Positions 13,405 through 13,835 of a DNA stretch of 64,000 bases are shown here, piece by piece. Each line of letters starts with the position of its first letter. The first letter of the stretch is position 1. The notes under the pieces are model-generated. The model worked only from the letters and a program-made list of their open reading frames with translations, was not told the origin of the DNA and made no database searches. A program made the translations under genes and the position numbers. This DNA is from Roseovarius indicus. GTDB taxonomy: Bacteria > Pseudomonadota > Alphaproteobacteria > Rhodobacterales > Rhodobacteraceae. Location of the stretch: positions 3,596,001 through 3,660,000 of the forward strand of contig NZ_CP031598.1 of assembly GCF_008728195.1 (NCBI RefSeq). Reading direction: 5' to 3'.

Positions 13405-13437
13405 TTGCGACAATTCTCAAATGTTCTATCTTCGTTC
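13405..13437 (+). promoter_or_regulatory. SOS promoter with LexA box GTTC-N7-GTTC
   Basis: A perfect alphaproteobacterial LexA box occupies 13423-13437 (GTTC, seven bases, GTTC). It overlaps a candidate promoter with TTGCGA at 13405-13410, a 16-base spacer and TATCTT at 13427-13432. Transcription would begin close to 13440, the first base of the downstream ATG, predicting LexA-repressed, nearly leaderless expression of the DnaE2-like OB protein. Confidence 0.72.
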
Positions 13438-13439
13438 TC

Positions 13440-13835
13440 ATGAAAGTCATGTCCCCCCTGCCCGCCTTTTACGCAGACTGGCCGCGCCCGCCCGCGGCCC
13501 TCGTCGCCGCCCGCCTGGATGAGCCGCCGGGCGGCGCGCGCGTCACCGTGGCCGGGCTCGTCATCCTGCGCCAGCGTCCCGGCACCGCCAAGGGCGTGAT
13601 CTTCCTCACGCTCGAGGACGAGACGGGCGTCGTGAACATCGTCGTCTGGCGCAACATGTACGAACGCTTCCGCCGGGCGGTGATCTCGGGGCGGCTGCTG
13701 CGGGTCACCGGCCGGGTTCAGCGCGAGGCGGGCGTCGTTCATGTCGTGGCCGAAGAGATCGAGGATGTGTCCCCGTTGCTAGACCGGCTGCTCGATCCCG
13801 ATTGCCCGCTTCCCCGCGAGGGCGAAACCGGCTAG
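13440..13835 (+). CDS. Free-standing DnaE2-type C-terminal OB-fold protein, SOS-regulated
   Basis: This 131-aa protein resembles only the C-terminal OB-fold of error-prone polymerase DnaE2 (ImuC). [19 protein letters not shown] and the following LEDETGVVN are hallmark residues, and the chain ends with a [16 protein letters not shown] strand. PHP, polymerase and helix-hairpin-helix parts are absent, and no imuA or imuB is adjacent. The immediately upstream LexA box shows it belongs to the DNA-damage regulon. It could be a domain remnant after deletion of an imuA-imuB-dnaE2 operon, or a functional single OB protein. The open frame and good codon use argue against recent decay. ATG 13440 or ATG 13449 are both possible starts. 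Confidence 0.75.

Follow-up and report, generated by a model that had tools for sequence, protein, structure and literature searches.

Here we describe a DNA polymerase gene in two pieces, an OB domain and a polymerase body encoded apart from each other, in Roseovarius indicus. We analysed a stretch of 64,000 nucleotides (nt) of its genome (the window; contig NZ_CP031598.1), in which a free-standing open reading frame (ORF) of 131 amino acids (aa) encodes solely a C-terminal OB domain of the type found in the error-prone polymerase DnaE2, as a sequence-only reading of this DNA had proposed. Residues 22-118 match positions 944-1040 of the 1047 of the DnaE2 model NF004225 of NCBIfam (E 4.9e-33), and the Pfam OB family PF01336 matches the protein at E 4.6e-15. 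The same DnaE2 model, run against the whole genome, gave three matches: a DnaE1-like protein below the cut-off, the OB protein (944-1040), and, above the cut-off, a DnaE2 body of 963 aa that covers profile positions 4-938 and ends 20 residues past its KAHP motif. The nearest body protein in the database, at 98% identity, is from R. indicus. The OB and body genes lie 1.11 Mb apart on the same contig and their products cover one DnaE2 profile without overlap, and this search found no fused full-length dnaE2 in the genome. DnaE2 in R. indicus thus appears to be split at the OB boundary rather than lost, and its division into two genes is, by sequence comparison, well supported as a genomic fact. 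The 131-aa gene holds no PHP domain, polymerase core or HhH in the same chain and, judged by its domains, is no DnaE2 by itself; with the 963-aa protein it would make up one. Nor does it fall in the SSB family PF00436, where it scores 16.6 bits against a cut-off of 26. We consider it likely that this protein is the OB domain of DnaE2, cut off by an old gene fission, relocated, and now working in trans with the body as an SOS-induced subunit.

The pairing of the two pieces extends across the family. Among 295 family genomes, an OB match of some kind was found in 256 and, at E<=1e-220, a body match in 254; the matches listed form two groups, high-scoring short OB frames and OBs within frames of more than 1000 aa, plus a few fragments. 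We counted as short OB the matches of at least 141.9 bits (excluding G276, which is fused, and adding G083), as body form those of at least 1342.9 bits plus G194, and as ImuB of this type the rows down to G220, the three genome lists being typed by hand from the best-scoring listed matches. On this count the short OB occurs in 124 genomes and the OB-less body form in 122; both are present in 118, the OB only in six, the body only in four and neither in 167. In four of the six genomes counted as OB-only, pieces of the body lie on fragmented contigs. This near one-to-one relation suggests that the OB is the missing piece of a split polymerase. The earlier proposal that an imuA-imuB-dnaE2 operon had collapsed to a promoter and a tail does not fit a genome that has imuB, an imuA candidate and a body lacking exactly the OB.

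The 68 fetched loci with a strong body match divide into 23 with full-length proteins and 45 with the body form; since three of the 45 hold the one body gene of the window genome, 43 are distinct. All 43 end before the OB and have no OB of their own, and the 23 full-length proteins have both the OB and a tail resembling HPR.Q...LFPSRDFH, which the contig end cuts short in one of them. That tail is missing in 128 of 129 distinct short OBs (loci identical over 260 nt counted once; L141 and L210, each near a contig end, dropped) and is kept only in G194. Instead, 116 of the 129 have W-P-R-P-P before the domain (strict pattern), a motif that by eye was seen at the corresponding place in none of the 23 full-length proteins. 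In the body, D403, D405 and D555, which we take to be the catalytic aspartates of the DnaE2 family, are invariant across 27 aligned proteins. The OB gene is under purifying selection: the ratio of nonsynonymous to synonymous substitution rates (dN/dS) of its core (100 codons) has a median of 0.165 and a maximum of 0.485 in 331 pairs (80-98.5% nucleotide identity, at least 80 codons, dS up to 3), and lies between 0 and 0.16 in the 25 closest pairs. A set of 50 chosen OB sequences has 44 invariant columns.

The predicted structure of the OB protein is an OB fold (mean predicted local distance difference test, pLDDT, 85.7; first ten residues low, 58) that aligns to residues 1005-1099 of 7pu7_A, the DNA polymerase III alpha of M. 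tuberculosis, to which the body profile aligns at 204-923. Fold searches returned a generic OB fold, with matches to RPA and Stn1 as well and with unrelated OB proteins scoring as high as DnaE, so the fold speaks for compatibility only and it is the sequence match that shows a DnaE2 origin. A profile of the OB alignment found nothing among solved structures at E<=0.01. Prediction for the 963-aa body gave a poor model (mean pLDDT 54.7, predicted template modelling score 0.38), which was not used.

The promoter of the OB gene carries a perfect LexA box, another point on which the sequence-only reading was right. The motif GTTC-N7-GTTC is given as that of alphaproteobacterial LexA in PMC3323433, where imuA-imuB-dnaE2 is described as a LexA-controlled cassette in alphaproteobacteria. 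In the window such sites are near chance (three perfect against 1.34 expected, with 17 of 100 shuffles reaching three), so a box means little alone and it is conservation that counts. The box is perfect in 122 of the 129 OB loci (sought from 60 to 260 nt before the conserved RPG codons), with one mismatch in three more; within a 115-nt stretch around the start it is perfect in 116 of 128 distinct short-OB loci, compared with 96 of 4520 stretches of 115 nt taken at random from the fetched loci. The box ends 2 nt before the ATG in 88 of the 122 loci where it is perfect. Where the box is in + orientation, column counts give T-T/G-G-C at -18 to -15 relative to its first position, and across OB loci TTG(C), a 16-nt gap and then TATnTT in the box spacer, so that LexA should cover the -10 (Table 1). 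The mRNA is probably leaderless, starting at or next to the ATG, because the 2 nt that separate the box from the ATG are too few to hold a Shine-Dalgarno sequence. Perfect boxes also precede imuB in 14 of 15 loci and imuA in 20 of the 20 best-scoring loci fetched. For the body, a box with at most one mismatch was found in 40 of 42 loci, 15 of them perfect; the site, often GAACAAAACGTGAAT with its one mismatch, precedes the ATG by 14 nt in R. indicus and mostly by 12-17 nt elsewhere, and the near-box of L061 is not of this common form. The OB gene is therefore predicted to be under LexA control, apparently answering to the same damage alarm as the body and its partners. The third perfect site of the window lies at 44585-44599 (-).

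Table 1. Features of the split DnaE2 system in the window (positions of the 64,000-nt stretch)
Feature	Position	Strand	Basis or remark
Probable -35 element, TTGCGA	13405..13410	+	Sequence reading, column counts across loci
LexA box GTTC-N7-GTTC, GTTCTATCTTCGTTC	13423..13437	+	Ends 2 nt before the OB ATG
Probable -10 element, TATCTT	13427-13432		Within LexA box spacer, 16 nt after -35
DnaE2-type OB gene, free-standing, 131 aa	13440..13835	+	Profile matches, Pfam scan
W-P-R-P-P motif codons (residues 14-18)	13479..13493	+	Typical of the split form
LexA box before imuA, GTTCGCGGTTTGTTC (GAACAAACCGCGAAC on + strand)	59097..59111	-	
Candidate imuA, 205 aa	59128..59745	+	NF033429, E 2.1e-6, 29.4 bits, below the cut-off of 150

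The partners of the mutasome are encoded in the same genome. R. indicus has its own ImuB (C1:4790867-4792519, with a perfect box) and, in the window, a candidate ImuA below the family cut-off that shares 34-35% identity with the sequence directly preceding imuB in two fused cassettes, L034 and L036. These are the OB domain, body, partners and LexA-type boxes of the usual ImuA-ImuB-DnaE2 cassette; the usual form has one fused DnaE2 in an operon, whereas here OB and body are unlinked genes. In 16 genomes hand-picked among those with at most nine contigs (G269 and G289 qualified but were left out), the OB is never less than 10 kb from the body, imuB or imuA, the closest case being 46 kb in R. indicus itself, and body and imuB are less than 10 kb apart in two. 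The classical operon thus appears to have been dispersed as four units, all of them preceded by a box or near-box. Both arrangements occur in genome G035, which we infer to be Dinoroseobacter shibae from the 100% identity of its contig C4 over 4822 bases to plasmid NC_009957.1 of D. shibae DFL 12: the split form is on the chromosome (L203, C1) and a fused imuB-dnaE2 cassette is on a 126-kb plasmid (L034, C4). An imuA-imuB-dnaE2-type cassette on a 126-kb plasmid is mentioned in PMC9426580. A term search of the main text of the D. shibae SOS paper (PMC6473078) found no dnaE2, imuA or imuB.

Two genomes may keep traces of how the split arose. In G194 (L070) the body (3627-6857) and the OB (from 7813) stand on the same strand about 950 bp apart, each with its own LexA box, a locus that is possibly a fossil of the fission. 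The fused DnaE2 of G276 (L071) falls near early split branches in the tree, and its OB resembles the split type (RQRPGTAKG), so it may be either a pre-split sister or a re-fusion. Together they look like traces of a path from fused, through split nearby, to moved. A quick tree placed the split bodies L070, L191 and L199 on the full-length side, mixed with fused L071 and L171; when the 43 split rows were constrained to group together, the likelihood rose by 37.8 (approximately unbiased test, p-AU 0.864), and a single fission is therefore not rejected.

In the mechanism that we propose, DNA damage would lift LexA from the OB, body, imuB and imuA promoters. The OB protein would then dock onto the DnaE2 body or ImuB, perhaps via its WPRPP-bearing N-terminus, and hold the single-stranded template, which is the usual job of an OB, and the trans-acting OB would restore a working ImuA-ImuB-DnaE2 translesion machine. 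A bolder and tentative extension, for which we see about one chance in three, is a C-family translesion polymerase whose separately transcribed parts come together on demand, with the OB tightly LexA-gated, WPRPP as a new motif for docking and, possibly, the trans OB as an on-switch that licenses mutagenesis in Roseobacter-group bacteria.

Several observations weigh against a split polymerase working in trans. The co-occurrence of OB and body has a Fisher p of 4e-69, a value that ignores relatedness among genomes and so is no probability of chance. ImuB co-occurs with the OB as tightly as the body does (118 of 124), and therefore co-occurrence does not tell the binding partner. Genome G051 (7 contigs, 100% complete; OB locus L207) combines an intact, box-bearing OB with ImuA and ImuB, and the sole body match in it is DnaE1-like (32% identity); this genome is the best test case for a role of the OB without the polymerase. 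G237 has a boxed OB together with a body fragment (316-aa frame), plus another, divergent frame of 1113 aa. Conversely, no OB was found in the body-form genomes G044 (99% complete, about 100 contigs), G064, G162 and G180, nor in G098 and G142, which have body pieces (all but G044 being in 250-490 contigs); one of the searches behind this had no positive control. WPRPP is changed or missing in 13 of the 129 short OBs, four of the 129 loci have no box, and most body boxes deviate by one mismatch, a level that 341 of the 4520 random stretches reach.

G051 and the tight pairing with ImuB would suit the main rival explanation, that the OB has an SOS job of its own as a small adaptor of single-stranded DNA, ImuB or the clamp, independent of the DnaE2 body, and so would a model whose generic fold also matches RPA and Stn1. 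Independence, however, predicts frequent OBs without a body, yet only G051 and G237 of the 124 genomes are so and the OB of G237 has no WPRPP; with all 43 distinct body-form loci lacking an OB, we regard an independent job as unlikely, at roughly one chance in six. Much less probable is an OB that limits the mutasome, as a competitive decoy or a brake. Polymerases are known to be restrained by small SOS proteins, and the OB promoter bears a box, as do those of the body and its partners. A decoy should occur alongside full-length DnaE2, yet the short form accompanies OB-less bodies; D. shibae, which combines a short OB with a full-length DnaE2 on its plasmid, has the split body too. The sequence-only reading had envisaged a single SOS-induced OB protein, perhaps as an adaptor or decoy: a boxed, selected gene with many homologues stands, and a lone role is less probable than a split polymerase, to which the pairing with OB-less bodies points. 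That the gene is a decaying dnaE2 remnant is the least probable of all, since such decay exists outside the family (G591, below) but is here largely refuted by the low dN/dS, the conserved promoter and invariant columns, and an N-terminal motif shared among short OBs and not seen in full-length proteins.

Polymerases encoded in two pieces are known in cyanobacterial DnaE, with its split intein, and in archaeal PolB, and the OB-body pair is like them in this respect. No intein halves appeared in the Pfam scan of the OB or in the precomputed domains of 120 listed bodies (polymerase Pfam domains only), no dedicated intein search being run; few residues precede the OB domain and the body tails are variable at the break, so the two chains should stay separate. 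Timinskas et al. (2013; PMC3919608) mention the joining of intein-split sequences and report several DnaE2s without an OB domain, the available part of their text naming no organism for these and mentioning no separately encoded OB; the split form described here offers an explanation for DnaE2s reported 'without an OB'. In PMC12926913, DnaE2 systems are classified, and the accessible portion mentions a split ImuB and no split DnaE2; its DnaE2X systems, with separate iPolY and ImuB-C, also have a mutasome part in two genes, but it is ImuB that is divided. A trans-encoded DnaE2 OB was not described in the listed titles and abstract openings of openly licensed literature, an outcome that does not prove novelty. 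What the OB contributes to C-family translesion synthesis is difficult to examine as long as the domain is part of an enzyme of about 1100 aa. In the split form it is a naturally separate and separately deletable gene in a large Roseobacter-related group that includes D. shibae, which additionally offers an intact plasmid cassette for comparison.

Further searches set the range of the short form. G278, the only same-genus genome in the family draw, had no match to OB, body, ImuB or ImuA. A class-wide draw of 385 genomes, at least five of them of this family, gave 176 with a match; outside the family, 11 listed frames were shorter than 1000 aa (besides those of G000 and G210, which belong to it), most near contig starts. 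The only one fetched, in G591 (single contig, other family; L227), is an OB-bearing frame of 181 aa in a broken imuA-imuB-dnaE2 remnant, and it was rejected as a short-OB form. In a plasmid collection, none of 263 matching records spans 80% of the OB query, and in a phage collection one record matched the OB weakly.

A database search returned 4460 OB homologues, which may include pieces of longer genes on short contigs and so are no count of split OBs. Among the matches listed, the piece is called 'OB-fold nucleic acid binding domain-containing protein', 'single-strand DNA-binding protein', 'Error-prone DNA polymerase' or 'DNA-directed RNA polymerase', the last being an example of how it is sometimes misnamed. 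No DnaE2 reading frame lies upstream of the OB gene; the neighbour is a divergent ferredoxin-like ORF (12989-13450, -, by eye) that adjoins the OB promoter, and similar upstream sequence occurs at several other OB loci. Directly downstream lies a lipoprotein-like ORF (13872-14789, by eye), and G051 and G237 have a similar one after their OB, so the neighbourhood of the OB is partly conserved.
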